Positions 17,522 to 55,288 of a stretch of DNA of 64,000 nucleotides are shown piece by piece (the first letter of the stretch is position 1; the number at the start of each line of letters is the position of its first letter). The translations under genes and the position numbers were made by a program. The notes under the pieces were generated by a model that worked only from the letters and a program-made list of their open reading frames with translations, had not been told where the DNA came from and searched no databases. The stretch comes from Actinomycetota bacterium (GTDB lineage Bacteria > Actinomycetota > Geothermincolia > Geothermincolales > RBG-13-55-18), in contig JASEFK010000002.1 in NCBI GenBank assembly GCA_030019255.1, positions 233,347 to 297,346 of the forward strand, written 5' to 3'.

Positions 17522-17802
17522 GGTCGCAGCGAGCGTTTCAGCGAGCGAGACCATTAACCCCGGCCCCTCGGAAGAAGGAACTCCAAGGGAGAACAGCACA
17601 TCCATGAAAGCCAGCGGTCAGTCGGAGCGAGCGTCTCAGCGAGCGAGACCACTACCACCGGTTTTTCGGAAGAAAGAGGGATCCCAGGCGAACGAGACCA
17701 CTAACCCCGGCCTCCCCGGAAGAGGTAGAAGGGCGATACGGCTGGCAGGCGGCCTCCCGCCCCACATACCCCCCGGGGTATCAAAATTCAAGACCTGACC
17801 CC
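17522..17802 (+). repeat. Composite repeat element A, overlapping the deoC 3' end
   Basis: Three degenerate units built on GCGAGCGAGACCA then TAACCCCGGCC and CGGAAGA (about 17522-17578, 17621-17680, 17687-17725) are followed by a hairpin (ATACCCC/GGGGTAT, 17766-17781) and the family end motif AAAATTCAAGACCTGACCCC (17783-17802). The end supplies the last four sense codons and stop of deoC on the other strand. The body is shared with the copy at 44703-44884. No transposase is encoded. Confidence 0.75.
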
Positions 17803-18543
17803 ATAGATCCAGAGGTACTCCTGGAGGATGGCATAAGCCGCGCTGGTCCCGATCCGGTTGGCCCCGGCCCTCACCATCTCCATCACCTGGGCCAGGGTGC
17901 GTATCCCCCCGCTGGCCTTGACCCCGAAGCCCGGCCCCACCACCTCCCGCAGGAAGCGGACATCATCCGCAGTGGCCCCGGCGGGCCCGAAGCCCGTGGA
18001 GGTCTTCACGAAATCGGCCCCCGCTTCCCTGGCCAGCAGCGCCCCGAGGCGCATCTCCTCCCGACTCAGGTAACAGGTCTCCAGGATCACTTTCACCACC
18101 ACGTGGCCCTCCCCCTTGCCGGCGTCGTAACGGCGCGCCAGCTCCACCACGCCCCGGATGTCCTCCCTCACCCTCTCCAACCTTCCCGAGCGGAGGGCGG
18201 AGATGTTGATCACCATGTCCAGCTCCCCGGCTCCCTGCTGCAGCGCGAACACCGCCTCCGCCCTCTTGGCGTCGGTGGACTGGTAACCGAAGGGAAACCC
18301 CAGGGGTGCCCCTAGGACCACACCGCTTCCCCGGAGCTCCATGCGCGCCATGGGCAGGTAGTAAGGGGGCACGAAAACGGCCCGGAAGCGCGCATCCGCC
18401 GCCTGGCGCAAGAAGCTCAGGTACTCACGTTCATCGGCCTCCGGCCGCAGCAGGGTGGCGTCCAGGAGGTAGGTTAGATGCCCCACACTGGGAAACAATT
18501 CCAGGACTTCTTCCCTGGTCACCTCCCGTTTCGCTCCGGGCAT
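17788..18543 (-). CDS. deoC: Deoxyribose-phosphate aldolase
   Basis: A 251-residue class I aldolase that cleaves 2-deoxyribose 5-phosphate to acetaldehyde and glyceraldehyde 3-phosphate in deoxynucleoside catabolism. Visible hallmarks are LDATLLRPEA near the N-terminus, VVKVILETCYLS with the catalytic Lys pair region, GADFVKTSTGFGPAGAT with the Schiff-base Lys, and VKASGGIRT. The last residues GVRS and the stop are encoded by the end motif of repeat element A, so the native C-terminus was replaced when the element arrived. It is the last gene of the era-mgtE-deoC run, 13 bases behind mgtE. Confidence 0.92.
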   Translation of the reverse strand: MPGAKREVTREEVLELFPSVGHLTYLLDATLLRPEADEREYLSFLRQAADARFRAVFVPPYYLPMARMELRGSGVVLGAPLGFPFGYQSTDAKRAEAVFALQQGAGELDMVINISALRSGRLERVREDIRGVVELARRYDAGKGEGHVVVKVILETCYLSREEMRLGALLAREAGADFVKTSTGFGPAGATADDVRFLREVVGPGFGVKASGGIRTLAQVMEMVRAGANRIGTSAAYAILQEYLWIYGVRS

Positions 18544-18556
18544 CTCGCACCCCCAT

Positions 18557-19903
18557 TCATACCAAAGCCATGGCCACCAGGAGGTAGACCGCCAACCCCA
18601 CGGCGTCCATGAGCGTGGCCACCAGCGGCTCGGAGGCCTTGGAGGGATCGCGGCCCATCTTCCTCAGGAGCAGGGGAAGAGAGGACCCCAGCAGGGCGGC
18701 GGAGAGAACCGTGCAGGCCATGGCCAGACCCACCGCAGTTCCCAGGGCGGCGTTCTCGCGCATCAACCAGGCCACCACGGCGATTATCCCTCCCGAGGCC
18801 GCGGCCACCAGGAGACCGATGCCCACCTCGCTCGCCACGGCCCGCACGTACCGCCGCCCTTCTCCCTCCTGGAGGAGGTCCACGGTCACGCGCGTGGCGC
18901 TCTGCAGGGCCACCGTCCCTCCCATGGCCAGGATGGCGGGAATGAAGAAGATGATGGCCAGGTGATTCCTCAGCACCTCCGAGAAACCCCGCAGAATGCC
19001 CCCCACCACCAGGACCTCCAGAGCCAGGGCGAGGAAAACCCAGGGCAGCCTGCCCAGGAAGGGGACCAGCAGGGGATGCCTTTCCGCTCCTTCCTCCGTC
19101 TCCCAGCTCCCCACCAGGCTGTAGATGTCCTCCTGGGCCTCCTCCTCGATGACGTCCAGGACGTCGTCCACGGTGACTATCCCCAGGAGCCTCCCCTCCT
19201 CGTCCACCACCGGGACGGCCAGCAGGTCATAGCGGTCGATGAGGGCGGCTACCTTCTCCTGGTCCTCACCGGGGCCCACGGTGATGAGATCGCGGTGCAT
19301 GATACGGGAGACCGGCTCCTCCGGGTCGGCGACGATCAGCTCGCGCAGGGAGGTGACCCCCACCAGCCTTTCCCGCTCGTCCAGCAGGTACACGTAATAG
19401 ATCATCTCCACGCTTTCCGGCGCCTCGCGCAGCCTCTCCAGCACCTCGCCCACGGTGAGGTCCTGGCTCAGGCGCATGGCCTCGGGGGTCATGAGGCCTC
19501 CCGCCGTGCGCTCCCCGTGGGCCAGGAGGCGACGCAGCTCCCCGGCCTTCCGTGCGCTCAATCCGGAGAGGATGGACTCCCTTAACCTGGGGGGAAGGTC
19601 GGCCAGCAGGTCAACCGCGTCGTCGGGAGGCATCTCGGAGATGATGCGCACGGCCAGGTTGCGGGCCAGCCCCTCCACCACCCTCACCTGTTCCTCTTCG
19701 GACATCTCCAGGAGCGCCTCCGAGGAATCCTCGGCGTCCCAGGAACGGAAGATGCGCATCCGGTCCTCGTAGGGCACGCTCTCCAGGACCTCCGCGGCGT
19801 CCGCGGGGTGTAGCCCGTCTAGAAGGGCCAGGGCAGCCCCCATCTTCCCCTCCGCGAGAAGGTCCTTGAGGGTCTCGCCCAGAACCCGGTTTCTCTCCTC
19901 CAT
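18557..19903 (-). CDS. mgtE: Magnesium transporter MgtE
   Basis: A 448-residue protein with the complete MgtE layout: N-terminal superhelical MgtE_N domain (residues about 15-120, LHPADAAEVLESVPYEDR), two CBS motifs (about 125-245, ending IVTVDDVLDVI), and five membrane helices in the C-terminal 170 residues. The pore segment PLVATLMDAVGLAVYL keeps the conserved Asp. The usual GGNxGxQ loop reads GGTVALQS here, a mild change. It conducts Mg2+ inward and is gated by Mg2+ binding to the CBS domains. It sits between era and deoC in one transcript. Confidence 0.93.
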   Translation of the reverse strand: MEERNRVLGETLKDLLAEGKMGAALALLDGLHPADAAEVLESVPYEDRMRIFRSWDAEDSSEALLEMSEEEQVRVVEGLARNLAVRIISEMPPDDAVDLLADLPPRLRESILSGLSARKAGELRRLLAHGERTAGGLMTPEAMRLSQDLTVGEVLERLREAPESVEMIYYVYLLDERERLVGVTSLRELIVADPEEPVSRIMHRDLITVGPGEDQEKVAALIDRYDLLAVPVVDEEGRLLGIVTVDDVLDVIEEEAQEDIYSLVGSWETEEGAERHPLLVPFLGRLPWVFLALALEVLVVGGILRGFSEVLRNHLAIIFFIPAILAMGGTVALQSATRVTVDLLQEGEGRRYVRAVASEVGIGLLVAAASGGIIAVVAWLMRENAALGTAVGLAMACTVLSAALLGSSLPLLLRKMGRDPSKASEPLVATLMDAVGLAVYLLVAMALV

Positions 19904-19929
19904 GGCCTCCCTCTTATCCTGTGCAGGTA

Positions 19930-20850
19930 TCAGTAGCCCATCCTGCGCACCAGCTGGGGCCGTTTGGACCAGTCCTTTTCCACCTTGACCTGGAGCTGCA
20001 GGAAGACCTTCTCTCCTAACAGGGGTTCAATCTCCCGGCGTGCCCGGGTGCCGATCTCCTTGAGCATGCGGCCCCCCCTGCCTATGATGATGCCCTTCTG
20101 GGAATCCCTCTCCACGTAGATGACCGCCTGGATGTCCACTATCTCCCCGTCCTCCCGCTTACCCATCTCCTCAACCACCACGGCCACGCTGTGAGGGACC
20201 TCCTCCCGCGTGAGCTGTAGGACCTTCTCCCGGATGAGCTCGGCCACTATGAAGGTCACCGGCTGGTCGGTGATCATATCATCAGGGTAATACTTGGGGC
20301 CCTCCGGCAGCAGCTCCACGATCTTCTCGATGAGAGCGTGGACGTTCTCGCCGGTCTTGGCGGAAAGGGGGATGACGTCCTCGAAATCCCCCAGGTTCTC
20401 CGCCACCGCCAGCTGGGCCTCCACCTGCTCGGGGCTCAACCTGTCTATCTTGTTGAGCACCGCCACCACCGGGGTCTCCAGGCCGGACAGCTCCCCGGCA
20501 ATGAACAAGTCGCCCTTACCGATGGTCTGGGTCCCGTCCAGCATGAAGACCACCACGTCCACCTCGGAGAGGGTCTCCCTGACCGCCTTGTTCAACCTCT
20601 CCCCCAGGGCGTTCCGGGGCTTGTGCAGACCCGGGGTATCCACGAAGATTATCTGGGCGTCGTCCCGGGTGAGTATGCAGCGGATCTTGTTGCGCGTAGT
20701 CTGGGGCTTTTCGGAGATGATGGCCAGCTTGCGATGCATGAGGTTGTTGAGCAGCGTGGATTTTCCCACGTTGGGCCGGCCGATGATGCCCACGAACCCC
20801 GAGCGGTAAGCGCCTTGCGGACTTGAATCCTCGGACATGACCTCCTCCAT
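19930..20850 (-). CDS. era: GTPase Era
   Basis: A 306-residue ribosome-assembly GTPase. G1 is GRPNVGKSTLLN, G3 DTPGLHKP, G4 NKID, with a C-terminal KH domain (KGIIIGRGGRMLKEIGTRAR) that binds the 3' end of 16S rRNA. Start ATG 20850 (MEEVMSED) follows GGCGAGG; ATG 20838 (MSEDSS) is a close alternative. It lies downstream of rodA and upstream of mgtE on the minus strand. Confidence 0.95.
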   Translation of the reverse strand: MEEVMSEDSSPQGAYRSGFVGIIGRPNVGKSTLLNNLMHRKLAIISEKPQTTRNKIRCILTRDDAQIIFVDTPGLHKPRNALGERLNKAVRETLSEVDVVVFMLDGTQTIGKGDLFIAGELSGLETPVVAVLNKIDRLSPEQVEAQLAVAENLGDFEDVIPLSAKTGENVHALIEKIVELLPEGPKYYPDDMITDQPVTFIVAELIREKVLQLTREEVPHSVAVVVEEMGKREDGEIVDIQAVIYVERDSQKGIIIGRGGRMLKEIGTRARREIEPLLGEKVFLQLQVKVEKDWSKRPQLVRRMGY

Positions 20851-20941
20851 CCTCGCCTTGACCTACCCGTATCCCGCGACCTCCTTGCTCCCGCGGGAGG
20901 AAATTCCCACCCTTCGAAAGAGATGGGATTTTTTGCCATAC

Positions 20942-22117
20942 CTATATCTGGGAGAACCTCCGCATGTACACGTTGGTGAGCAGGCCAACGGCCGCCAGGT
21001 TGACGATGAGGCTCGATCCTCCGTAGGTGATGAAGGGCAGAGGGATACCGGTTATGGGCATGATCCCTATTGTCATGCCTATGTTCACGATGATCTGGAA
21101 GGCGAACATGGTCACGATGCCGAAGGCGATCATGGTCCCGTAGAAATCGCGAGCGTGGTTGGCGATGCGCACCCCCCTCCAGAGAAGGTAACAGAAGGCC
21201 GCGATGAGCAGCAAGGCCCCGATCAACCCCAGCTCCTCTCCCACCACGGCGAAGACGAAGTCGGTATGGTGGGCGGGGATGAACTTGAGGTTGGTCTGGG
21301 TGCCCTTGAAGAGCCCCTTTCCCACCAGCTGGCCCGATCCAATGGCTATCTTGGACTGCATGAGCTGGTAACCGGCCCCCTGGATGCTGCTCCCCTGCTT
21401 GAGGAAGGCCGTGAAGCGCTCCACCTGGTAGTCGTGGAAAAGGTGGAAGGCGAACCCCAGGGTGAACCCCAGGACCCCCAGGCCCACGAAACCCAGCCAG
21501 TAGCGCATGCGGCAGCCTACCAGGTAGAGCATGCCCAGCAGGATGGCCGCCAGCACCAGGGTGGTTCCCAGATCGGGCTGGAGGAAGACGAAGAACATGA
21601 AGGGGAGGGCCCAGAGCGTCGGGACGACAAAGCTGCGGAGGGACTCCGGATCCGCCTTGTTGTCGGAAAAGTAGTTGGCCAGGACCAGGATGAGCACCAG
21701 CTTGCAGTATTCGGAGGGCTGGAAGCTGAAGGGTCCCAGGGTTATCCAGCGCTGAGCCCCCATGGCCTCCTCGGTGAGAAAGACCACCAGGAGGGCGAGG
21801 AGGAAGAAACCGTAGATGAAGGGCGTGGCCACCTTGAGGCGGCGGTAGTCGAAGCTGAGCATGAGGCCCATGACCACCAGGCCCACCAGGAAATTCAGGG
21901 CCGTGCGTAAAACGTAATAGGTGGGGTTGTCCGGGTTGTCCCCCCGGGTGGCGCTGTACTGGACGAGCATCCCGAAGGCCACCAGGAAAAGGGTAACCGC
22001 CAGGAGGGACCAGTCCACGTGGCGGATGGGCATCCCGCTCAAGCGGCGGGCTACCTCGTCGGTCCTCCTCCGCTCCGTAACCTTGGGGGCCAGGACCCTT
22101 CCCAGCCGAGTTGGCAT
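20942..22117 (-). CDS. rodA: Rod-shape peptidoglycan polymerase RodA (SEDS family)
   Basis: A 391-residue membrane protein with about ten helices and SEDS hallmarks: WITLGPFSFQPSEYCKL, FVFAVVGEELGLIGA and GIMPITGIPLPFITYGGSSL. RodA polymerises lipid II glycan strands for side-wall elongation with the class B PBP encoded just upstream (mrdA, 18 bases away). The N-terminus carries a cytoplasmic tail of about 30 residues. Confidence 0.93.
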   Translation of the reverse strand: MPTRLGRVLAPKVTERRRTDEVARRLSGMPIRHVDWSLLAVTLFLVAFGMLVQYSATRGDNPDNPTYYVLRTALNFLVGLVVMGLMLSFDYRRLKVATPFIYGFFLLALLVVFLTEEAMGAQRWITLGPFSFQPSEYCKLVLILVLANYFSDNKADPESLRSFVVPTLWALPFMFFVFLQPDLGTTLVLAAILLGMLYLVGCRMRYWLGFVGLGVLGFTLGFAFHLFHDYQVERFTAFLKQGSSIQGAGYQLMQSKIAIGSGQLVGKGLFKGTQTNLKFIPAHHTDFVFAVVGEELGLIGALLLIAAFCYLLWRGVRIANHARDFYGTMIAFGIVTMFAFQIIVNIGMTIGIMPITGIPLPFITYGGSSLIVNLAAVGLLTNVYMRRFSQI

Positions 22118-22135
22118 AATTCCTCTACCCCCTCC

Positions 22136-24085
22136 TCACTCGGTCACCGTGACCTCCGGCTGTCCCCGCGGGATGCCGAAGATATACTCCAGGATGTGCC
22201 GGGCGATGGGAGCGGCCACCAGGCCTCCATGGCCGCCCTCCTCCACCATCACCACCACCACGTAGCGAGGATCGTTGGCCGGAGCGTAGCAGGCGAACCA
22301 GGCGCAGGGCTGCTTGCCCTGGACCTCGGCGGTTCCCGTCTTCCCGGCCACGGGGATGGCCTTGATGGGAAAGCCGGCAAAGGCCCCGGCAGCCGTTCCT
22401 CCCCGGGCTACCACCCCGGTGAGGGCGTTGCGCACCACGTCCAACTTGTCCTTGTCCACGTGGATGCCGAGATCGTTGTCGGGATCGGTGATATCCCCGA
22501 TCTGCTGGGGCTGGATGGTCTCCACCGTCTCCCCGAGGTAGGTGAGGATCTCCTTCCCCACGTGGGGCCGGAAGTATGGGCCCCGGTTGGCTATGGCCGC
22601 GTACAGGTTGGCCAGCTGCAGGGGGGTGACCAGAATGTCTCCCTGCCCCACGGCCATGTTCACCGTATCCCCGGGATACCAGCGCTGGTAGTCCGGGTTC
22701 CCCTGATTGAACTCCCACTTCCACTGCGGGGTGGGGACCCGTCCCTCGAACTCGTTGGGGAGGTCCACGCCCGTGGGCTTGCCCAGCCCGGCCAGGACGG
22801 CGTAATCCTGCAGGCGGGTGACCCAACCTTCCCGGTTGCGGTTTTCGTAGAAAGCGTATCCCAGGTCATAGAAGACCACGTCGCAGGACTGGATGATGGC
22901 GCTCATGAAGTTGATGGAGCCGTGGGTACCCCAGCAGGTCTTGGGAAACTGGGCGAACTCCCCCCGGTTGAAGACGTGCCCGCAGAAGAAGGGGGAATAA
23001 GCGCTCACCATCCCCTCCTGGAGGGCGGCCATGGCGGTGACCACCTTGAAAGTTGACCCGGGTGGGTACTGTCCCACGATGGCCCGGTTGTTCAGGGGAT
23101 AGTTGTTGCGGGGGTCGTTGAGCCTTTGCCATTCCTCCTCGTCAATCCCGCCCACGAAATCCTCCAGGTTGAAGGTGGGCTCGCTGGCCATGGCCAGTAT
23201 CTCGCCCGTACGGGGGTCCAGGACTACCGCCGCTCCCGCCGGGGCCACGTAGTTCTTGCCCCGCTCGCGGTCGAAGTAGGTGCGTGCCTGGGCCATGCCC
23301 TGCCGGAGGCTCTCCTCCACCGCCCGCTGGAGTTCCTTGTCCAGGGTGAGGACCAGGGTTTTCCCCGGGTTTCGCTCCTCCCTCCCCAGTTCCTGGAGAG
23401 GCCTGCCCCGGGCGTCCACCTCCATGATCAGCTTGCCATCCACCCCCCGCAGGATATCCTCGTAGTAGGCCTCCACCCCCGAGGTCCCCACGATATCCCC
23501 CGCCTTGTAACCCTTGTCCTTCAGCACTTTAAGTTGTTCCTCTGAAATTTCTCCCAGGTACCCCAGAACGTGGGCCGCCAAGCTCTCGTCCCCATCAGGG
23601 TATTCGCGGACCGGCATCTTCTCGGGGAACACCCAGGGGAAGTCCGCCTGCCTCTCCTGGATGAAGAAATAGACCTCGGGGTCCACGTCCTTCTTGATGA
23701 GCACCGGCTTGTGCGGCTGCACGCCCTCGCCCTGGAGTTTTTTCATGATCTCCTCGCCGCTCATGCCCAGCATGGCTCCCAGGCGGGCGGCCTCACCTTC
23801 CTTGTCCTCCAGCTTCTCGAACTCCGTGGGGAGGACGAAGATGGAGAGAGCCCAGCGGTTTCCCACCAGCATCTGGTAGTTGCGGTCCAGTATCTTGCCC
23901 CGGGAGGCCTCCAGGGGGACCTCCCGCACCCGGTTGCCCTCGGCCATGCTCCGGTAGCGGTCCCCCTGCACTACCTGCAGGAACCAAAGCCTGACCACCA
24001 GTACGGCCACCATGACCCCGATGAACATGACGAAAAGGGTATAGCGGTGGACCATGGCTCCTTTCTGCTGCGGGTTAACGGGCAT
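22136..24085 (-). CDS. mrdA: Penicillin-binding protein 2 (elongasome transpeptidase)
   Basis: A 649-residue class B PBP. One N-terminal membrane helix (YTLFVMFIGVMVAVLVVRLWFL), a PBP dimer domain starting near EVPLEASRGKILDRN, then the transpeptidase domain with PPGSTFKVV (catalytic Ser, SxxK), SCDVVFYDLG (SxN-like position) and KTGTAEVQG (KTG). It crosslinks new wall during rod elongation, paired with RodA. It lies in the standard mreB-mreC-mreD-mrdA-rodA order. Confidence 0.93.
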   Translation of the reverse strand: MPVNPQQKGAMVHRYTLFVMFIGVMVAVLVVRLWFLQVVQGDRYRSMAEGNRVREVPLEASRGKILDRNYQMLVGNRWALSIFVLPTEFEKLEDKEGEAARLGAMLGMSGEEIMKKLQGEGVQPHKPVLIKKDVDPEVYFFIQERQADFPWVFPEKMPVREYPDGDESLAAHVLGYLGEISEEQLKVLKDKGYKAGDIVGTSGVEAYYEDILRGVDGKLIMEVDARGRPLQELGREERNPGKTLVLTLDKELQRAVEESLRQGMAQARTYFDRERGKNYVAPAGAAVVLDPRTGEILAMASEPTFNLEDFVGGIDEEEWQRLNDPRNNYPLNNRAIVGQYPPGSTFKVVTAMAALQEGMVSAYSPFFCGHVFNRGEFAQFPKTCWGTHGSINFMSAIIQSCDVVFYDLGYAFYENRNREGWVTRLQDYAVLAGLGKPTGVDLPNEFEGRVPTPQWKWEFNQGNPDYQRWYPGDTVNMAVGQGDILVTPLQLANLYAAIANRGPYFRPHVGKEILTYLGETVETIQPQQIGDITDPDNDLGIHVDKDKLDVVRNALTGVVARGGTAAGAFAGFPIKAIPVAGKTGTAEVQGKQPCAWFACYAPANDPRYVVVVMVEEGGHGGLVAAPIARHILEYIFGIPRGQPEVTVTE

Positions 24086-24097
24086 GGCGACCCCACC

Positions 24098-24607
24098 TCA
24101 CTGGAACATCATCTCCCTTTCCTCGCGACCGGCAAACCTTCCCAGCAGGGGATAGACGGCCAGGGTGAGCACGGAGTTGTACAGCGCCAGCCCGAAGACC
24201 ACCCCGGGGTTCAGAGGGGGTCTCTGCTCCAGGCCCACCATGGTCCAGGCGGCGAACTTGATGAGCTCGTGGAGGAGGGTGCCCGCGAAGACGATGAGCA
24301 TGGGCCAGACCACGGACTTGGAGACCACGCGCTGCCGGAGCTCACCGGAGAAATAGCCGATGAGGGTCTTGGCGAAGGCCCCCACCCCCAGGACGGCGGT
24401 GGTGAAGACGTCCTCAAGCAGGCCGCCCCAGAACCCGAAGAGGGCTCCCCGGGTGGGGTCCTCGAAGAGGGCCCAGCAGATGGTGGCCGTGAGGAGGAGG
24501 TCCGGCTTTACACTCCCCACGCTTATCTCCCCCGCTACCGCCACCTGGAGGAGGAGAGCCACCAGGATGATGATGGCAAAGAGCAGCCGGCGGTGGGCGG
24601 TTATCAT
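24098..24607 (-). CDS. mreD: Rod-shape-determining protein MreD
   Basis: A 169-residue protein with five or six membrane helices and little else, as expected of MreD (AIIILVALLLQVAVAG, PDLLLTATICWALFEDP). Its ATG overlaps the mreC stop (24604-24607), so translation is coupled. It connects MreC and the PBP2/RodA complex in the membrane. The identification rests on size, topology and position. Confidence 0.88.
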   Translation of the reverse strand: MITAHRRLLFAIIILVALLLQVAVAGEISVGSVKPDLLLTATICWALFEDPTRGALFGFWGGLLEDVFTTAVLGVGAFAKTLIGYFSGELRQRVVSKSVVWPMLIVFAGTLLHELIKFAAWTMVGLEQRPPLNPGVVFGLALYNSVLTLAVYPLLGRFAGREEREMMFQ

Positions 24608-25473
24608 ATCCCGCTCCCCCCTTCGGCGACTCCCGGTGCGGTGGTAGGCTTCGGGGAGATCACCACCATGACCCTGTCCAGGCGGGTCATGTTGGCCCGC
24701 GGCTGGATAATGATTCCTACCGATAGGTCCGCCTGCTTCTCCCCTATCTCGGTCACCGTGCCGATGGGTATGCCCGCCGGGCAGGTGCCCCCCATGCCCG
24801 AGGTGACCACCACGTCGCCCGTGCGCACGTCAGCCTCCAGGTTGAGGAGCTCGAGGTGCACCCTTCCACCGCCCTCCCCGCGCAGGATGCCCATCTCCGA
24901 GTTGCGCTGCAGCCTGGCTCCCACGGCGCTTTTCTCATCGGTGATCAGCTGCACTATCGAGGACTTCGCCGTGCAGGTGATTATCCTGCCCACCAGGCTC
25001 CCGTCCTCGCTGAGCACGGCCATGTACTCCTGCAGACCGTCATCGTATCCCGCCCCGATGATGATGGTCTGCTCCCAGGCGTCGGGGCTGGCCCCGATAA
25101 CCTCCACCACCAGGAACTCCAGTTCCGGGTAAGCTTCCTTGACCGCGATCATCTCCCTCAGGGCCTCGTTCTCGCGCCGCATCCCTTCCAGCTCGTGGAC
25201 CCTCTGCTCCAGAAGCCTTACCTCGTCCTTAAGGCGGTCCCTCTCTCCCCGGGCCCGCCCCAGGTCCACCAGGAAGCCGATGCCGTCGCGCACTGGGCTC
25301 AGCACCTTGCTCATCCCCTTCTGCAGGGGGGAGATGACGTCCATGGAAAAACGCTGCAGGCGGTGCAGCAGGCCGTTCTCGCTCTCGCGGGAGTAGACGG
25401 TGACCAGAAGTATGCACACCAGTATGAGAATGACGATGAGAAATCGCTGTCTGCGGTTGCGTCTTTCCAGCAT
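24604..25473 (-). CDS. mreC: Rod-shape-determining protein MreC
   Basis: A 289-residue protein with one N-terminal membrane helix (RFLIVILILVCILLVTVYS), a coiled coil (about residues 65-105, GERDRLKDEVRLLEQRVHEL) and the periplasmic double beta-barrel with the MreC signature VIGASPDAWEQTIIIGAG and GDVVVTSGMGGTCPAGIPIG. It scaffolds and activates PBP2. It is 17 bases behind mreB. Confidence 0.93.
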   Translation of the reverse strand: MLERRNRRQRFLIVILILVCILLVTVYSRESENGLLHRLQRFSMDVISPLQKGMSKVLSPVRDGIGFLVDLGRARGERDRLKDEVRLLEQRVHELEGMRRENEALREMIAVKEAYPELEFLVVEVIGASPDAWEQTIIIGAGYDDGLQEYMAVLSEDGSLVGRIITCTAKSSIVQLITDEKSAVGARLQRNSEMGILRGEGGGRVHLELLNLEADVRTGDVVVTSGMGGTCPAGIPIGTVTEIGEKQADLSVGIIIQPRANMTRLDRVMVVISPKPTTAPGVAEGGSGI

Positions 25474-28899: not shown

Positions 28900-29133
28900 G
28901 GGGTCAGGTCTTGAATTTTGATACCCCAGGGGGTATCCAATCGAATAACGAATTTTTCTCTTCGACCTTTATAGAAATATAAAGTAATTGCTTTTTATAA
29001 CAGATGACGTGGCAATTGTTGAGCCACATCCCTCTCGAACCTTTAAAGTCAACCGCCAAAGGATCGCAACGGACAGTCAAAGCAACTGGACCACATATAC
29101 CCGGGGGGGTATCAAAATTCAAGACCTGACCCC
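28900..29133. mobile_element. 234-base MITE-like element with perfect 26-base terminal inverted repeats
   Basis: The left end (28900-28925) and right end (29108-29133) are exact reverse complements, each containing AAAATTCAAGACCTGACCCC next to a GGTATC hairpin. The 180-base interior is AT-rich and encodes nothing credible, unlike the GC-rich flanks. It fills almost the whole space between valS (10 bases away) and folC (0 bases). Small non-autonomous elements with such ends are moved in trans by a transposase, here absent from the window. Confidence 0.8.
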
Positions 29134-29143: not shown

Positions 29144-31801
<2,658 letters not shown>

Positions 31802-38308: not shown

Positions 38309-38309
38309 C

Positions 38310-44437: not shown

Positions 44438-44604
44438 GTAAAGATCCGGGGTCAGTCCCTTTCCGTTGCCGGCTCCTTTCGTGGCGAGCGGTAGAGGTCT
44501 CCGGTCACTCCAACAATAAAAGCTCCTGCAGATGATCTCCCCTTCTAAAACCTCTACCCCCGAGTAAAGATTCGGGGTCGGTCCCTTTCCATTGCCGGCT
44601 CCTT
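44438..44604 (+). repeat. Two 42-base direct repeats, 125 bases apart
   Basis: Copies at 44438-44479 and 44563-44604 both begin AGTAAAGAT and run through CGGGGTC, GTCCCTTTCC and TTGCCGGCTCCTT with three mismatches. The GGGGTC-GTCCC part recalls the GACCCC ends of the element family next to it. No gene is present. Confidence 0.7.
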
Positions 44605-44702
44605 GCATGGTCAGCAGCAAAGCCGTCAGGCTACGTCGGCAAGAAAAGCTCCCGCATGCAAACTTCCCTTCTACAACTTCCCTTCCCGGGGCCGACTGGG
44701 TC

Positions 44703-44884
44703 GGTCGCAGCGAGCCCTCCTCAACCCTTTTCTTCTTTCGAGAGACGGTGCGTGGAGGCGAGCGAGACTATTAACCACGGCCATTTCCAGAATAAGAACA
44801 GGGCCTTGGGCGAGCGATACCGCTACCCGGCGGCCCTTTTCCTCCATATACCCTCGGGGGTATCAAAATTCAAGACCTGACCCC
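44703..44884 (+). repeat. Composite repeat element B (homologue of 17522-17802)
   Basis: It shares with the 17.5-kb copy GGTCGCAGCGAGC at the start, GCGAGCGAGACTATTAACC in the middle, GCGATACCGCTACCCGGCGG before the end, and the hairpin plus AAAATTCAAGACCTGACCCC at the end (44865-44884). It lies between murI and the gene starting at 44932. It is shorter than the other copy, with fewer internal units. Confidence 0.7.
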
Positions 44885-44931: not shown

Positions 44932-45342
44932 GTGATAAAAGAATATTTCCTCCGCCGCATGGAGCAGCTGGTACCGCTGCTCCTCCTGACATCTCACGAT
45001 CTGCCGTCCGCGGATCCCGGGGAGATAGCCGACTTTTGCAAGGAGTTTATCTACTCCGGCACCCCGGCCTTCCGCATGCTCTATTTCGCCATGATCCTCC
45101 TTCTGCAGGCCCTATGCCGGCTGCGCTGCGGCCGTTCCATCTACTCCCTGCGTCCCCCCGAAGCCGAGGAGTTCCTGGAATCCCTGTATTCCAGCCGGCT
45201 GATACTGCTCAATGCCGTGCCCACCCTCTTGAGCATGCCCTTCGACCTGGCCTATTACGGGCGGGACGAGGTGCAGGAAGCGCTGGGCTTCGAGGTGGGG
45301 GCCCTGCGGGAGGAAGCCCTCCGGAGAGAGGTGGTTCGATGA
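44932..45342 (+). CDS. Small protein encoded with a GMC oxidoreductase
   Basis: A 136-residue mostly helical protein (MIKEYFLRRMEQLVPLLLLT, FRMLYFAMILLLQALCRLRC, SRLILLNAVPTLLSMPFDLAYYGR). The start is GTG 44932 behind GGGAGGAGG. It overlaps the oxidoreductase start (ATGA, 45339-45342), so the two are coupled. Size, hydrophobicity and position resemble the small subunits of membrane-bound GMC-type dehydrogenases (gluconate dehydrogenase subunit 3-like); this is inferred. The repeat element ends 48 bases upstream and may carry the promoter. Confidence 0.6.
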   Translation: MIKEYFLRRMEQLVPLLLLTSHDLPSADPGEIADFCKEFIYSGTPAFRMLYFAMILLLQALCRLRCGRSIYSLRPPEAEEFLESLYSSRLILLNAVPTLLSMPFDLAYYGRDEVQEALGFEVGALREEALRREVVR

Positions 45343-47825: not shown

Positions 47826-47880
47826 GTCCTCACCTTACCCTCCCGCCCGCCCCGGGCGAGTTTCCCGTCTCCTTCCGCTT

Positions 47881-47886: not shown

Positions 47887-48193
47887 TTCCATGGGGAAAT
47901 ATTCCATCCCCGCAGGCCGGTTCCGGCGGCACCCGAGCGCAGTTCCACGCGCCGGGATGCGCCCCGGTCCAGAACCTCCCCCGGACGTCGGTAGGTCCTC
48001 CGGAAGGAGGTCACCTTCCGGACGCGCAAGGTCCGGACGCGCAAGGAGGGGAATTATACTCCCAAGCCCCCTCCCGCACCAGCAAAAGGAGCCTCCGGCC
48101 TTCCATTCAGAAACCACCACCGATGCACGCACAGCTACCAGGCACAATACCTCCCCCAGCCTTTTTCCGCTTACGTGCAGGGAACCGCTAAGG

Positions 48194-48199
48194 TATGAT
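48194..48199 (+). promoter_or_regulatory. -10 box placing the smpB transcript start at or near its ATG
   Basis: TATGAT ends seven bases before ATG 48206. A start at the usual distance would fall on the ATG, making a leaderless mRNA. There is no Shine-Dalgarno site within ten bases; the nearest AAGG is 13 bases away. Confidence 0.4.
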
Positions 48200-48205
48200 G
48201 TACCC

Positions 48206-48703
48206 ATGGGCGGGAAAAACCAGACCCTTAAAAGGGTGAAGACCCTGGCCGAGAACCGCAAGGCCAGGCACGACTACCTCATCGAGGAGCGCATGGAGGC
48301 GGGGATATCCCTCCTGGGATCCGAGGTCAAGTCCATCCGGGAGGGCAAGGCCTCCCTGCGGGACAGCTTCGCCAGGGTGCGGGATGGCGAGGTCTTCCTG
48401 GAGAACATGCACGTGGCTCCCTACAGCCACGGGGGAGCTTTCAACCATCCGCCCCGGCGGGAGAGAAAACTCCTCCTCCACAAGGATGAGATACGGCGCC
48501 TGCAGGGCAAGGTGGCCGAGAAGGGCTACACCCTGGTGCCCCTCAGCCTCTACCTCAACGAGAGGGGAAAGATCAAGGTGGAGCTGGGGCTGGCCCGGGG
48601 CAAGGCCAAGGCCGACCGCCGCCGCGAGATAATGGAACGGGAGAGCCGACGGGACCTGGAACGGGCCCTCAAGGAGGGATTGCGGCGAACCTCACGGGAA
48701 TGA
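48206..48703 (+). CDS. smpB: SsrA-binding protein SmpB
   Basis: A 165-residue SmpB that binds tmRNA and places it in stalled ribosomes. Signature segments are NRKARHDYLIEERMEAGISLLGSEVKS, NMHVAPYSHGGAFNHPPRRERKLLLH, and LVPLSLYLNERGKIKVELGLARGKAKADRR, ending in a basic tail. The start is MGGKNQTLKRV. tmRNA is encoded 465 bases downstream on the same strand. Confidence 0.96.
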   Translation: MGGKNQTLKRVKTLAENRKARHDYLIEERMEAGISLLGSEVKSIREGKASLRDSFARVRDGEVFLENMHVAPYSHGGAFNHPPRRERKLLLHKDEIRRLQGKVAEKGYTLVPLSLYLNERGKIKVELGLARGKAKADRRREIMERESRRDLERALKEGLRRTSRE

Positions 48704-48728
48704 GGTGTTCCGACTCACCGGGTCCAGG

Positions 48729-48840
48729 CATGCCCCATGGCCGTAACAATCGAACCATCCTCCTGGAAGTATCGGTACACGAGAATAGGGAAGTAATCTT
48801 CATGCCCCATCGACCGTAATAGTTGAAACGATCCTCCCGG
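48729..48840 (+). repeat. Imperfect tandem repeats between smpB and tmRNA
   Basis: CATGCCCCAT is followed in both copies (48729-48766, 48801-48840) by GACCGTAA or GGCCGTAA, then GAA and CGATCCTCC or CCATCCTCC. Further on, GCGATAAGGGG occurs twice (near 48995 and 49064). No gene lies in 48704-49168. A TAAAAT at 49133-49138 is a possible -10 for tmRNA. Confidence 0.5.
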
Positions 48841-49168
48841 GAACGGGGTATCCATGGCTCCGCTATTTCCATGACCCCGCTGTACCTCTCGTTCCTTTAA
48901 AAACGGCGAAAATGTTGTGTTTATTGGATAGGTGGGTTCAGGAAAATCTCCAAAACGGGAAAACTCCCCATGATCCTGATGCAACCCGCAACCAGCGATA
49001 AGGGGGTTCTCCCGCCGGAAACTCCCTGCCAAGGAGGCAAGGGAGCGGCAAAAACCACACCCGGCGATAAGGGGTTTTCTCGGTGAAAATGGTGGTACAA
49101 CTGCCAGGGATGCGTTTCAGGGTCGACGGATGTAAAATATTAAGGTGAAGGCGCAGTTTGACAACCGA

Positions 49169-49519
49169 GGGGGCGAAACGGCTTCGACAGGGATCGGCGG
49201 CCGCAGTGGGAGCGAGTCGGGGGCCCGCGCCCCGTCAGCAAGCGGGAAAACAAATAGACGCCGACAGCGAGTTGGCTCTGGCCGCTTAATGTAGGCGGCC
49301 CGTCCCTCCCCGGGAGGCCCGCGACCGGGGAAGGGGCGTCGCGCAGCGGGCTGGCCGAGGCCCAACTCCCGTGAGGGCCGAGGGACTACCTGACCGGGAT
49401 AGCTCCCGGCGAGCCGTTCGCCGGGCGGACCGGGAGCGAAAGACAATACGGCGGATACGCTCGTAGAGCCCACGCGGTCGGATTTCTGGACGGGGGTTCG
49501 ACTCCCCCCGCCTCCACCA
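49169..49519 (+). ncRNA. ssrA: Transfer-messenger RNA (tmRNA)
   Basis: 351 bases. The 5' GGGGGCGAAACGGCTTCGAC and the 3' GGACGGGGGTTCGACTCCCC then CGCCTCCACCA form the tRNA-like domain (GGGGGCG pairs with CGCCTCC). The tag frame starts with GAC at 49257 and reads DADSELALAA, then TAA (49287-49289). With the Ala from the charged tmRNA the tag is ADADSELALAA, ending in the ClpXP-recognised ALAA. Confidence 0.95.
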
Positions 49520-49525
49520 GAAAAA

Positions 49526-49560
49526 GGAAAAGCCCTTCCACGAGAAGGGTTTTTCTTTCT
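49526..49560 (+). terminator. Intrinsic terminator of tmRNA
   Basis: CCCTTC (49533-49538) pairs with GAAGGG (49544-49549), extended by A/T pairs, and is followed by a long T-rich run (TTTTTCTTTCTT). Confidence 0.85.
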
Positions 49561-49637
49561 TGCGCAAACGGCGCGAAGAGGCCACGCCTTAAATGATCAA
49601 ATCATCTTCGCCACGCAGGGGGGGATGGTACATCCGG

Positions 49638-50957
49638 TCAGGGATTACCACGGGCCACCTCCAGGGCGCGCTCCAGCTGGAGGTCCTCCTCGCCCACCAG
49701 GGGGTTCTTCACCGGGATATCCGGGGCGATGCCCTGGTCGTCGATGTTGGTCCCCAGGGGAGTGTAGTAGCGGGCGATGGTCAGGCGGATCCCTGTACCA
49801 TCAGGCTGGCGGAAGATCTGCTGGATGGAGCCCTTCCCGAAGGTGGTCTCCCCCACCAGCAGGCAACGGTTGTTCTCCCGCAGGGCGGCGGCGAAGATCT
49901 CCGAGGCGCTGGCCGACCCCCGGTTGACCAACACGTAGACGGGAAGGTCCCAGGACACCTCACCGTCCGCCTCGTAAACCCGGTTCACTCCCCCCACCCG
50001 ACCCCGGGAGGAAACGATGACCCCGCCGCGCAGGAAGAGGTCGGCAGCTTCGATGGCCGTTTCCATGTATCCTCCGGGATTGGAGCGCAGGTCGATGACC
50101 AGGGAGGAAGCGCCCTTCGCCCCCAGTTCGGCCAGGGCTTCCCGCAGCCGCTCCGCGGCGTCCTGGGTCCAGTCGGTGAGACGGATGTAACCCACTCCCC
50201 CCTCCTTGACCTCCACCTCCATGACCGGGATCTCGATCCTCCGGCGCACGATGTCGAAGGTGAGGATTTCCGGTTCCCCCGGCCGGGACACGCCGATGCG
50301 GACCGTGGTTCCCTCCGGGCCCCGGATGAGCATGACCACCTCGTCCAGCTCCAGGTTGGTCACGTCCCTTCCGTCTACCTCCCGGACGATGTCCCCCTCC
50401 CGCATTCCCACCTCCTGGGCCGGCGTGCCCTCCAGCACCTGGACCACGCGTATTTGGTTCTTCACCTTCTGCATGGCCACACCGATGCCCGAGAAATGCC
50501 CGGAGAGCTGGGTGTCCAGCATCTCCAGCTGTTCGGCGGTCATGGAGGCGGTGAAGGGATCGTCCAGGGAATCCAGCATGGACTCCACTCCCCGCGCCAC
50601 CAGGGCGTTGCGGTCAGCTCCGGCCTCCGCCAGGCGGCGGATGCCCCGCGCCGCGGCCCCCAGGAGCTCCTCCCCGTCCACCTCCTCCACGAAGTTGCCC
50701 TCCACGATGTCCCGCGCGCGCCGGAAGGAGTCGCTCTCCAGCAGGAGGTCTCGGAGCTGCTCCGCGGATTCCGCCGTCCCCTCCCCGGTCGCCCGCGAGG
50801 TCGCGTCACTTCCGGAGCGACGCCCCGTGGAGGTCAGGAGGTAGGGCACGGCGAAACAGGAGCCCAACAGGAGCAGGGAAAGCACCACGGCGATGACGGC
50901 TATGCGCCGGTCCCGGCGCTTCAGCCCCTCCGCCGAGAAGTCAGGGACCGGCTGCAT
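49638..50957 (-). CDS. Carboxy-terminal processing protease (S41 family)
   Basis: A 439-residue protease with an N-terminal membrane anchor (IAVIAVVLSLLLLGSCFAVPY), a PDZ domain (GIGVAMQKVKNQIRVVQVLE, GMREGDIVREVDGRDV) and an S41 domain with SSLVIDLRSNPGGYMETAI, NRGSASASEIFAAAL (catalytic Ser) and GETTFGKGSIQ (catalytic Lys). It acts outside the membrane on C-termini. It follows ftsE-ftsX on the minus strand, as CtpA/CtpB genes often do. Confidence 0.92.
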   Translation of the reverse strand: MQPVPDFSAEGLKRRDRRIAVIAVVLSLLLLGSCFAVPYLLTSTGRRSGSDATSRATGEGTAESAEQLRDLLLESDSFRRARDIVEGNFVEEVDGEELLGAAARGIRRLAEAGADRNALVARGVESMLDSLDDPFTASMTAEQLEMLDTQLSGHFSGIGVAMQKVKNQIRVVQVLEGTPAQEVGMREGDIVREVDGRDVTNLELDEVVMLIRGPEGTTVRIGVSRPGEPEILTFDIVRRRIEIPVMEVEVKEGGVGYIRLTDWTQDAAERLREALAELGAKGASSLVIDLRSNPGGYMETAIEAADLFLRGGVIVSSRGRVGGVNRVYEADGEVSWDLPVYVLVNRGSASASEIFAAALRENNRCLLVGETTFGKGSIQQIFRQPDGTGIRLTIARYYTPLGTNIDDQGIAPDIPVKNPLVGEEDLQLERALEVARGNP

Positions 50958-50990
50958 CCTCCTACCCCCTACGGGACCGGCGCCCGGTCC

Positions 50991-51890
50991 TCACACTTCG
51001 AGGAAGCGGCCCAGGGCGTAGGCGCTGCCCAGGGCCCCGATAACCACTCCCCCCACCAGGATGCAGGGGACGAGGACGGCGAAGAGGCCCGAGGAGAAGG
51101 AGAGACGGAGGAACTGTAGGCTCTCGATGAGCCGGTCCAGTATCCAGACCTTGACCGCCAGGACCACCAGGATGGCGGCCAGGGAACCCGTAAGCCCCTC
51201 GAAGACCCCTTCCAGCACGAAGGGCCAACGGATGAACCAGTTGGTGGCCCCCACCAGCTTCATGATCCCGATCTCCCTCCGCCGGGCGAAGATGGCCACC
51301 TGGATGGTCACCGAGACCAGGAGCACGGCCACCAGGGCCAGGGCTATGACGGCCACCGTGCCGATCTGCCGGAACTTGTCGAAGATGTTCTCCAGCTTCT
51401 CGATGGCCGCGCTGGCGGACTTGATGTCCTCGATGCGCTCCCGGTAGGGAGCCTCGTTGTTTATCTTTCCCACCACCACGCCGACGTCCTTGGGGTCCTT
51501 GGTCATCAGCTGGTAGGAATTGGGAAGTGGATTCTCGTCGATGTACTCCCAGAGCTCGGGCTGATCCTTGAACCGCTCCTTGAACTCCTTCAGGGCCTCA
51601 TCCTTGCTCTTGAAGTAGATGGACTTGGCGTCCACCTCCGGTATGGAGGCCAGGAAGGCCTCGATGGCCTGGAGCTCCTCCTGGGTGGCCAGGTCGGAGA
51701 GGTAGACGTCCACCTCCCCTACCTTGCGCTCGGCGTTCTTGATCATGTTGCTGAACATGTTCCAGCCCATCACCACCAGGCCCAGGAGCCCCAGGGAGAC
51801 GGTGACCACGGCGATGGCCGCGACGGCCAGGATGAGGTTCTTGCGCAGGGAAGCCCAGGTCTCGCCAGCGAAGTACTTGATCTTATTCAT
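50991..51890 (-). CDS. ftsX: Cell-division permease-like protein FtsX
   Basis: A 299-residue membrane protein with one N-terminal helix, an extracytoplasmic domain (EVDVYLSDLATQEELQAIEA) and three C-terminal helices around ARRREIGIMKLVGATNWFI. With FtsE it controls peptidoglycan hydrolases. It overlaps ftsE by eight bases. Confidence 0.93.
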   Translation of the reverse strand: MNKIKYFAGETWASLRKNLILAVAAIAVVTVSLGLLGLVVMGWNMFSNMIKNAERKVGEVDVYLSDLATQEELQAIEAFLASIPEVDAKSIYFKSKDEALKEFKERFKDQPELWEYIDENPLPNSYQLMTKDPKDVGVVVGKINNEAPYRERIEDIKSASAAIEKLENIFDKFRQIGTVAVIALALVAVLLVSVTIQVAIFARRREIGIMKLVGATNWFIRWPFVLEGVFEGLTGSLAAILVVLAVKVWILDRLIESLQFLRLSFSSGLFAVLVPCILVGGVVIGALGSAYALGRFLEV

Positions 51891-52566
51891 AGCCGTATAC
51901 GCCCCTGTCCTGGTCGCGGATGATGCGCCCGTTCTCCAGGGCGATCACCCTCTTGCGGAAGGCGTCCACTATGTTCTTGTCGTGGGTGGCCACGATCACC
52001 GTGGTGCCCGTGGAGTTTATCTTCTCCAGCAGGCGCACGATACCCACCCCCAGGGAGGGGTCCACGTTCCCGGTGGGCTCGTCGGCCAGGAGGATGGGCG
52101 GCCGGTTGATGAAGGCGCGCGCGATGGCCACCCTCTGCTGCTCCCCGCCCGAGAGCTCGTCCGGGAAGGCGTCCAGCTTGTGCCCCAGGCCCACCAGCTT
52201 GAGTACCTCGGGGACCTGCTGCTCGATGAGGCGCCGGGATTTCCCGGTGACCTCCATGGCGTAGGCCACGTTCTGGAAGACCGTCTTGTGGGGTAGGAGC
52301 TTGAAGTCCTGGAAGACGCAGCCTATCTTGCGCCTCAGGTAGGGGATCTTCCACTTGCGGAGCTGGTTGATGTTGGTGTCCGCGATGTAGATCTGTCCGC
52401 TGGTGGGCTCCTCCTCCTTGATGAGCAGCTTGATGAGGGTGGTCTTGCCCGAGCCGGAGGGACCCACCAGGAAGACGAACTCTCCCTTCTCCACGTCCAG
52501 GGTGACGTCCTCCAGGGCGTAGACGTTGCCCTTGTAGATCTTGGTCACCCTACGCATCCTGATCAA
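51883..52566 (-). CDS. ftsE: Cell-division ATP-binding protein FtsE
   Basis: A 227-residue ABC ATPase: Walker [16 protein letters not shown], signature [15 protein letters not shown], Walker [13 protein letters not shown], and the H-loop VIVATHD. It starts [20 protein letters not shown]. The transketolase gene lies six bases upstream, so the two may be in one transcript. Confidence 0.95.
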
Positions 52567-52572
52567 TGTCCA

Positions 52573-53538
52573 TCATCTCCTCGGTTTTCCGCCGTTATCT
52601 CCGTGACAGAGCAGGCGCGCCGCTTCGGCGATGTGACGGGCGCCCAGGCCGAAATGTTCCACCAGTTCCTCCGCCGACCCGGAGACGCCGAAGCGGTCCC
52701 GGATGCCCACCATGCGCATGGGCAGGGGCATCTCCTCGGCCAGGAGCTCGGCCACGGCGCTTCCCACTCCGCCGTGCACCGTGTGCTCCTCGCAGGTCAC
52801 CACCCTTCCCGTGCGGGCCGCCGATTCCAGGACGCCCTCCCGGTCCAGGGGTTTCACCGTGTGGAGATTGACGACCTCCGCCTCTATACCCTCCCCGGCC
52901 AGCATCTCCGCCGCCTGGAGCGCCTTATGCAGGAGGTAACCACAGGCGATCAGGGTGACGTCCCTTCCCGGGCGCATGACCAGTACCTTCCCGAACCGGA
53001 AGCGGTAGTCCTCGCCGAAGAGCACGGGCGCCTTGGGCCGCCCCAAGCGCACGTAGGCCGGGCCATCCAGGTAGGCCACGGCCTTCACCGCCTCCCGTGC
53101 CTCATAGTAATCGGCGGGCACTACCACCTTCATGCGCGGCACGGCCCGCATGAGGGTGATGTCCTCCAGGGCCTGGTGGGAGGAGCCGTCCTCCCCCACG
53201 GTTATGCCCCCGTGGCTGGCGCAGATCTTGACGTTGAGGTCGGAGTAGGCGATGGTGTTGCGCACCTGGTCGTAGGCCCTCCCGGTAGCGAAGATGGCGA
53301 AGGTGGAGGCGAAGACGATCTTGCCCGTGGTCGCCAGCCCGGCCGCGGTGGCCATGAGGTTCTGCTCCGCCACCCCGCAGTCCACGAAGCGCTCGGGGAA
53401 GCGCAGCTTGAACTTCTCCGTCTGGGTGGACTTTGCCAGGTCGGCATCCAGGACCACGATGCGAGGATCCTTCTCGCCCAGCTCCAGCAGTGCCGCGGCG
53501 TACCCGTCCCGGGTATTGCGCAATTCCCACTCCGTCAT
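52573..53538 (-). CDS. Transketolase, C-terminal subunit
   Basis: A 321-residue protein covering the pyrimidine-binding and C-terminal domains: [53 protein letters not shown] and [13 protein letters not shown]. With the adjacent N-terminal subunit it makes a two-gene transketolase, as in archaea and many anaerobes. Its ATG overlaps the N-subunit stop (53535-53538). Confidence 0.93.
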
Positions 53539-54443
53539 CTCGCCTCTTCCAGCTCCCTTAACGCTTTCTCCATCTCCTCCCGGGTGGGGGCCTTGCCGTG
53601 GAAATCCACGTTGTTCTCCATGAAGGACACGCCCTTGCCCTTCACCGTGTGGGCGATGATGATGCCGGGACCGGCGGCCTCGTCGGCCCGGTCCAGGGCC
53701 TCGCAGATCTCCAATACGTCGTGCCCGTCCACCTCCTGCACCTCCCACCCGAAGGAACGCCACTTGGCGGGAAGGTCTCCCAGGCTGACCACCTCGCAGC
53801 AGCGCCCGTCAATCTGCAGGCCGTTGTTGTCCAGTATGGCCGTCAGGTTATCCAGGCGCTGGTGGGCTGCGAGCATGGCCGCCTCCCAGATACCCCCCTC
53901 CTGGCTCTCGCCGTCCCCGATGAGGGCGTATACCCGGCAGGGGAGACCGTCCATGCGTAGGCCCAGGGCCATCCCGCAGGCGGCGGACAGCCCCTGCCCC
54001 AGTGAGCCGGTGGATATCTCCACCCCGGGAGTGCGCAGCCGGTCCGGGTGGCCCTGGAGCATGGAACCCAGGCGGCGGAGGCGCCACAGCTCCTCGCGGT
54101 CGAAATACCCGCTCCAGGCCAGGGCGGCGTAGAGGGCGGGGGCGGCGTGGCCCTTGGAGAGGACGAAGCGGTCCCGCAGGGGCCAGTCTGGTTCCTCGGG
54201 GCGATGCTTCATCTTGTAGAAGTAGAGGCAGGCCAGTATCTCCACGCAGGAGAGGGAGCCTCCGGGGTGCCCGCTCCCGGCCAGGCCGATCATGCGCACG
54301 ATGTCCTTGCGGAGTTCTCTGGAAATAGTTTCCAACCTGCTCCTGAGCTTCTCCGCCTCCGTCCCTCCCAAGACCATTCCTTCCGTCCTCGGGCGTATGG
54401 CGCTCATGCTTCCATGCCTTTCTGGCTCGCCGGCCGGCCTCAT
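53535..54443 (-). CDS. Transketolase, N-terminal subunit
   Basis: A 302-residue protein with the thiamine-diphosphate domain: [55 protein letters not shown] and the TPP motif [19 protein letters not shown]...LDNN. The start at 54443 overlaps the PHP stop (ATGA); ATG 54407 ([10 protein letters not shown]) behind AAAGG is also possible and gives a more typical N-terminus. It transfers two-carbon units in the pentose phosphate pathway. Confidence 0.93.
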
Positions 54444-55258
54444 TCCAGGCGCAGCGGCTTCCCCCTCCGCGCTAGGAACTCCTCCAGCCTTTCGAGGGAG
54501 TAGTTTATCACGCTGCTCGGAGTGATGTCAGTTTCACGTAATACTTCTATCGCCTCCCCGAATTCTCCTGCAAAGGAGGCCACGTGGGCGTCGCTTCCCA
54601 CCGCCACCAGGCCTCCCTTCTCCGCCAGGAGCCGCGCCATGCGCCGGCAGTTCTCCTCGCTCCCGCTGCGGGTGTAGGTGAAGGAACTGTTGTTCACCTC
54701 CAAGGCCTTTCCCTCCCGCACCGCCGCCTCCACCACCACCTCCATGTCCACCGGGAAGGCAGGATTGTCAGGATGGACGATGATGTCCACCAGGGGATGG
54801 CGGATGGCGGCCAAAAGAGCGGCGGTGTTCTCCTCCACGCCCTCCCCCTGGTACCCGGTGTAGGGATGCAGGCCGGCGTGGACCACGTCCAGGGCGGCCA
54901 GCACCTTGTCGGGAAGGTCCAGGGTCCCCCTCGTGTCCAGGATATTGGCCTCCACGGAGCGCAGGATGACCACGCCGTGGAGCCGCCGCGGGATCACCTT
55001 GAGGTTCCAGAAATGGTAAATATTGCCTGAACCCGGCACGGCCGGTCCGTGGTCGGTGACGGCTATGGCCTGCAAGCCCTTGCCCGCCGCCCAGCGGGCG
55101 CACTCCTCCACCGTGGAGTAGGCATGCCCACTGGACACCGTGTGCACGTGCAGGTCGACCTTGGGGGTCAGGTCTTGATTTTTGCCGGCCCCGGCATCCT
55201 TGCCTATGTAAACCATCTTTTCACCTTCTTCGCAGTCCGTCTTTTGCTCCACCGTCAT
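54440..55258 (-). CDS. PHP-domain phosphoesterase with an N-terminus supplied by a repeat element
   Basis: A PHP (YcdX/HisK-like) metal-dependent phosphoesterase; the core begins [20 protein letters not shown] and continues with [37 protein letters not shown] and [15 protein letters not shown], the usual metal His/Asp ligands. PHP proteins normally start a residue or two before DLHVH. Here 33 residues precede it ([20 protein letters not shown] then [12 protein letters not shown]), all encoded by the 125-base repeat element; NQDLTP is its end motif read in frame. A second start, MVYIGKD, follows AAGAAGGTG. So the element gives this gene its start codon and ribosome site. Confidence 0.85.
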
Positions 55259-55288
55259 TCCACCTTGTAAAAATCAAGACCTGACCCC
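55164..55288. mobile_element. 125-base element with 20-base terminal inverted repeats, between prfB and the PHP gene
   Basis: GGGGTCAGGTCTTGATTTTT (55164-55183) and its exact reverse complement (55269-55288) flank 85 bases. The right end encodes the last residues and stop of prfB; the left end and interior encode the N-terminus of the PHP protein. The end motif is a variant (ATTTTT for AATTTT) of that at 17.8, 28.9-29.1 and 44.9 kb. Confidence 0.8.

Follow-up and report, generated by a model that had tools for sequence, protein, structure and literature searches.

Short repeats at gene ends of an Actinomycetota genome as probable non-autonomous elements of a TIRYT-type Y1 transposase

Introduction

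TIRYT transposases, their GGGGWSAS ends and the associated families of terminal inverted repeats (TIRs; "TIRtrons") were described by Di Nocera et al. in 2013 (PMC3733652), and most TIRYTs fall in TnpA-Y1 subclass 2.1 (Quentin et al. 2018; PMC6006769). The former study also described GTAG REPs near ORF 3' ends, where they often supply a TAG stop (PMC3733652). Here we follow up a sequence-only reading of a 64,000-nt stretch of an Actinomycetota genome (hereafter the window), in which six copies of a 20-base motif at gene edges had been attributed to non-autonomous elements moved by a Y1 transposase encoded elsewhere.

Results

Motif copies and elements in the window

All six motif copies were found at the coordinates and on the strands originally given (Table 1). 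Four of them are exact, and those at 55164 and 55269 each differ from the 20-base motif by one mismatch. The motif was absent from 100 of 100 shuffles of the window, with 0 copies by chance. As had been proposed, two pairs of copies form inverted repeats, spanning 234 and 125 bp. The GGTATC hairpin said to lie beside most copies was recovered as a palindrome at four of the six, and the 125-bp pair lacks it.

Table 1. Motif copies, palindromes and elements in the window (positions from the first base of the window)
Feature	Position	Strand	Remark
Possible whole deoC-side element	17287..17802	+	tentative
Palindrome ATACCCCCCGGGGTATC adjoining motif	17766..17782	+	
Right terminal motif AAAATTCAAGACCTGACCCC	17783..17802	+	complement carries deoC TGA stop, 17788-17790
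deoC	17788-18543	-	family match
234-bp element, inverted ends, between folC and valS	28900..29133	.	
Left terminal motif of 234-bp element	28900..28919	-	
Left palindrome GATACCCCAGGGGGTATC of 234-bp element	28920..28937	+	
Right palindrome ATACCCGGGGGGGTATC of 234-bp element	29097..29113	+	
Right terminal motif of 234-bp element	29114..29133	+	AATAAA as outer flank
Longer element with two unlike ends	44448..44884	+	left GGGGTCAGTCCCTTTCC at 44448, variant at 44574
Palindrome ATACCCTCGGGGGTATC	44848..44864	+	adjoins 44865-44884 motif
Right terminal motif of 44448..44884 element	44865..44884	+	
125-bp element, inverted ends	55164..55288	.	AAAAATC variant, no palindrome
Left terminal motif of 125-bp element	55164..55183	-	read through within PHP N-terminus
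Right terminal motif of 125-bp element	55269..55288	+	gives prfB tail GVRS and stop

The gene assignments of the sequence-only reading also held: deoC, folC, valS, PHP and prfB each matched their own families. So did the placement of the copies at gene edges. The deoC and prfB stops lie inside the motif (prfB TGA at 55274-55276, minus strand), the folC ATG (28899) directly abuts the 234-bp element, and the valS stop at 29144 is 10 nt from the motif. The GTG at 44932 lies 47 nt from its motif and opens a 136-aa frame without a family match. The present ATG of the PHP gene (54440-55258, minus strand), at 55258, falls within the 125-bp element, and the first residues and predicted start of this gene are encoded by the inserted element.

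The two copies that appear single, at 17783 and 44865, are probably the right ends of longer elements, with a different sequence, GGGGTCA[GC], as the left end. Such left ends occur at 44448 and possibly at 17287, where GGGGTCACTTC is a tentative candidate named from its match to GGGGWSAS. A separate repeat, GGTCGGTCGCAGCGAG...GCGAGCGAGACC, occurs within the longer elements (17512-17725 and 44700-44840), and further solo copies are present on contig C1. Folded as single-stranded DNA, the 234-bp element is predicted to form a terminal stem of about 28 bp (z = -8.5 relative to shuffles), which would suit a single-stranded route without proving it.

A genome-wide family with more than one end type

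In the genome that contains the window (G000; 2.93 Mb, 43 contigs), the 15-base core TCAAGACCTGACCCC occurs at 59 places with at most one mismatch, 46 of them exact, and the reversed-core control at 0. The possibility that the six window copies are the only ones therefore fails against a genome-wide count of about 59. In the sampled DNA of this genome, 61 ends were collected at up to two mismatches, of which one or two may be chance matches. At most of the 61, the palindrome ATACCCCnnGGGGTAT lies directly inside the motif; a second end type, TGCAAAATTC, has no such palindrome. The palindrome arms are conserved by sequence and showed no covariation beyond shuffles; maintenance by covariation is not supported.

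Twelve inverted pairs of ends lie within 2.5 kb of each other in G000. Ten of the 12 are elements of 84-289 bp and one is a 1,061-bp transposase element; a 2,133-bp pair that spans other genes probably represents two elements. Many single ends belong to longer elements whose far end is GGGGTCAGTCCCTTT (11 copies in G000), and both kinds of end, motif and GGGGTCAGTCCCTTT, start with GGGGTCAG. Within the window, the GGGGTCAGTCCCTTT family is found at 44448-44462 and 44574-44588. It also occurs at a gene end of the congener G003 (C3:13339), where G000 carries the main motif. One copy of the motif (L006 match at 1501; G000 C2:178623) sits just a few bases upstream of what appears to be a tRNA gene.

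End copies number 59 in G000, 104 in G013 and 65 in G008. The 20-base motif was also found in many phyla, including Omnitrophota, Nitrospirae, Spirochaetes, Vibrio, Thalassotalea and Methylococcaceae, which fits the wide spread of this transposase family. A literature search with GGGGTCAGGTCTTG returned nothing, and the only match to GGGGTCAGAGT was an unrelated paper on human cells.

A Y1 transposase lies between the same ends

The single PF01797 (Y1_Tnp) match in G000 (C9:35590-35868) sits between inverted copies of the 20-base motif at C9:35303 and C9:36349, within the 1,061-bp element. Its frame lacks a normal start and diverges from its relatives near the end, and we therefore consider the gene decayed; unless another copy was missed, mobility in this genome thus belongs to the past. 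Relatives in the genus Candidatus Solincola and related genera (G001, Ca. Solincola quzhuomuensis; G002; G003, MAG-41; G012; G013) encode intact transposases of 280-290 aa between ends of the same kind, at a shared locus between formate dehydrogenase and phosphoglycerate mutase genes. The proteins are 75-77% identical within the genus and 57-62% identical between Solincola and other genera of the family. The transposase of G029, which belongs to another family of the class, also lies between such ends, so that inverted GGGGTCAGGTCTTG-type ends flank the gene in G000 and in all six of these relatives. A Y1/RAYT transposase flanked by the ends of the small elements, which the sequence-only reading had suggested looking for, is thus present, decayed in G000 and intact in its relatives.

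The transposase scores above the PF01797 cut-off and contains HYH and RYVVLNP motifs. The proteins of G001, G002 and G012 (the three scanned) also exceed the cut-off of the NCBIfam model NF047646, REP-associated tyrosine transposase, and reach 14-17.5 bits with the IS200 model NF033573, whose cut-off is 55. C-terminal matches to HTH_23 and sigma70_r4 in the Solincola proteins (E 0.01-0.2) lie below the curated cut-off; a relative, L060, passes that of HTH_23. Comparison with solved structures gave only a weak match, to TnpA-REP 4er8 (E 0.43); the class is settled by the sequence families.

In several genomes, the ends of the resident transposase recur as common or dominant types among the copies there. 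Those in G000, ATCAAAATTC, are the commonest type among the copies of that genome (32 of 61), those in G013, TGCAAAATGA, are the commonest there (49 of 75), and in the G008 sample the transposase's own ends match common or dominant copies, TGCAAAAAAC. This agreement is consistent with a resident transposase that changes in step with its followers. Another end variant was seen in G006, where tandem GGGGTCAGATCTTCATTCTTCGATCCCGGCAG units lie downstream of a Y1 transposase (L063, 2329-2556).

A congener lacks the element at about half of the sites

We compared the G000 sites with fully fetched contigs of G003, reading the alignments by eye. About half of the testable sites are filled in G003, some in decayed form, and about half are empty, which indicates that the elements were mobile and counts against old fixed sequence with identical copies at all orthologous loci. 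The 124-bp element at C13:15296-15419, for example, corresponds to an empty site in G003 with both flanking genes retained. At prfB/PHP, G000 and G003 carry the element and G001 and G002 lack it; G013, which belongs to another genus, again has it, at an identical base position in the PHP gene but with the end type of G013 itself. G000, G001 and G013 carry the folC/valS element, which most other genomes lack, and in G003 a decayed end remains beside valS. In G004, from another genus, the prfB/PHP spacer (L369) holds an unrelated perfect inverted-repeat element, TAGGTGCCGTGTCTTGATTCTTCA..., again beside a gene end.

At sites shared across the genus, a near-perfect motif borders unrelated inner DNA, and a given site may carry different end subtypes. 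Either the ends were replaced in place or insertion recurred at the same spot. Beyond the loci picked beforehand, only a few gene edges are common to G000 and G013, and we therefore make no strong claim of general site recurrence.

Elements lie at host gene ends with near base-level precision

Distances to stops were taken from our own codon-usage gene finder, which is rough (coding fraction 0.81). Among the 61 G000 ends, 45 face the stop of a neighbouring gene, at distances of -15 (17 ends), -22 (3), +1 (12), 0 (2), -1 (1), +2 (1) and a few larger values. Where the host stop lies outside the element, 16 of 25 ends are within -1 to +2 nt of it, against a null of 1.8% for intergenic positions within 400 nt; the resulting p-value of about 3e-22 is indicative only, given the rough gene finder. 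The clustering at gene edges beyond chance that the sequence-only reading had proposed to test is thus borne out for stops.

At 20 further ends, the host reading frame continues into the element and closes at an internal TGA. The read-through frames are distributed 17:3:0 (p = 4e-6 against equal expectation), and the -15 and -22 classes stop at the TGA of GGG GTC AGG TCT TGA or at a later TGA. Measured against empty G003 orthologues, the read-through insertions lie mostly 2-11 codons before the natural stop, and those of the +1 class at the natural stop or within one codon of it. Insertions found in G000 but missing from G003 likewise occur at gene ends. The main end type of G013 has no TGA, and many junctions there read TA/G (stroke, junction), so that host and element each contribute part of the stop codon. 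Retained host length equals that in G003 in 8 of 18 comparable G013 genes and is within 3 codons in 15 of 18, a few of the compared G003 genes carrying an element themselves.

The flanking bases are also biased. AAA flanks 19 of 61 ends in G000 (0.4 expected) and TA 32 of 52 in G013 (1.7 expected); by lineage, the flanking steps are AAA or AT in Solincola, GAT in G029 and TA in G013. No clear rule of target duplication or loss emerged, TA being present on both sides of 9 of 25 G013 elements and on one side of 13, and a fixed target-site duplication was not established. Only 2 of 119 TAAA words in the window lie at a stop, compared with 7 of 11 TAAA-flanked elements. Since TAAA mostly occurs elsewhere, a target word alone is ruled out as the cause of stop placement, and the AT-rich words in the flanks fall short of explaining how precisely elements sit at stop codons.

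Discussion

We consider it very probable that the motif copies are the TIRs of small, non-autonomous TIRYT-type elements, mobilised by the Y1 (HuH, single-tyrosine) transposase of an element with the same ends. The family has shared ends, a transposase between them, copies that mostly match the ends of their own transposase, empty sites and a reading-frame bias. The original attribution to non-autonomous elements moved by a Y1 transposase elsewhere therefore stands, given the sole PF01797 gene between the same ends, its intact relatives and clean empty sites. The elements are real and were mobile in the past, and the G000 copy of the transposase is disrupted.

By analogy with IS200/IS605, movement would proceed through single-stranded DNA folded by the ends, with joining beside a short A/T-rich step, AW/ in Solincola and TA/ in G013. 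The clustering of insertions at natural gene ends would reflect insertion bias or strong survival there. Survival would be concentrated where the element gives the host gene a stop almost at once, whether the gene's own, the TGA in GGGGTCAGGTCTTGA, or TA plus G at the junction; the shares of targeting and selection in this placement are ones that we infer. A bolder version, possible though rather unlikely, is that this transposase subclass prefers stop codons as insertion sites, for example by recognising a short signal or some state of the DNA where translated genes end. The ends would then have evolved to rebuild an in-frame stop, with TA/G taking over where TGA was lost (G013), and insertions at identical bases in different lineages, each with its own end type (PHP/prfB in G000/G003 and G013; the end of formate dehydrogenase in G000 and G029), would represent repeated hits on such sites.

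Among the alternatives, the one that best survives, though improbable, is that the 37-nt unit of palindrome and motif serves as a fixed signal for regulation or for mRNA 3' ends, maintained at gene ends by selection, and is no longer, or never was, mobile. The near-perfect motif at orthologous gene ends in four genomes, next to unrelated inner DNA, would fit such a signal, as would the many copies directly after stops. However, about half of the sites are empty in the congener, copies also abut starts and make up the PHP N-terminus, and the ends agree with those of the local transposase, with end types that can differ at one orthologous site.

Still less probable is that ordinary insertions came to abut genes as their spacers eroded down to the conserved ends. 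The genome is compact and many sites are old and common to the genus, yet the G000-specific insertions are already at gene ends, which rules out erosion for young copies. Moreover, the distances are concentrated at precisely +1 or in a single reading frame, unlike the outcome of gradual deletion, and the G013 junction cuts the natural stop codon.

The sequence-only reading had offered MITE or REP elements moved by a TnpA-REP (Y1) transposase. Its Y1-moved elements are retained, but as TIR elements of TIRYT type and not as classical GTAG REPs. It is very unlikely that the copies are such REPs and that a RAYT from one of the REP-associated subclasses moves them: the transposase superfamily is the same, and GTAG REPs are likewise located no more than 20 bp from ORF 3' ends and provide TAG stops (PMC3733652), but the GTAG/GTGG foot beside the palindrome is absent, the ends are long TIRs starting with GGGGTCAG, and some copies have no palindrome. 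Least credible of all are MITEs of a DDE insertion sequence that shares these ends by chance, since, for all their MITE-like inverted ends and sizes of 84-289 bp, a Y1 transposase was the sole gene to turn up between these ends in G029 and six genomes of the family, in a search that was non-exhaustive for DDE genes.

TIRYT transposases were named in 2013, and we found little on what their elements do. The present family offers hundreds of copies in related genomes, with empty sites, matched transposases and a base-level stop-codon pattern. It makes testable whether a transposon can avoid harm by cleanly ending host genes, and whether such transposases aim at gene ends. Insertion of an element accounts for odd protein tails such as GVRS, and in these genomes the elements can cause starts and stops to be called wrongly.

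Comparison with known systems

Some features of the family recall IS200/IS605 (IS608, ISDra2), namely the transposase superfamily and insertion beside a short fixed sequence with no clear duplication; it differs in its long TIRs and in scoring far below the cut-off of the NCBIfam IS200 model. With GTAG REPs/REPINs and their RAYTs (PMC3116915, PMC3733652) it shares short units in many copies near ORF 3' ends, the capacity to supply a stop, and a single resident transposase. In contrast to those systems, its ends are long inverted repeats and there is no GTAG-tagged hairpin: on inspection, a GTAG or GTGG tetranucleotide at the hairpin foot was not conserved among the 61 listed ends.

The likeness to subclass 2.1 (PMC6006769) lies in the length of the Y1 protein (280-290 aa), in its C-terminal region, which weakly matches HTH models, in GGGG[AT][CG]A[CG] ends and in the lack of typical REPs; it is a likeness of features, the HTH matches in Solincola being below curated cut-offs. 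As in TIRYT/TIRtron systems, a Y1 gene is flanked by long TIRs with a GGGGWSAS start, here GGGGTCAG at both ends, and the TIR sequences form a repeat family elsewhere in the genome. The present family differs in its host, Actinomycetota (Ca. Solincola and relatives), in the palindrome inside most ends and in some elements with two unlike GGGGTCAG ends. We found no description of a base-level link to stop codons for TIR families. Judged by its sequences, the family has the TIRYT features examined (Y1 gene, long TIRs, GGGGWSAS, repeat family), and its base-level stop-codon pattern goes further than the earlier observations on REPs.
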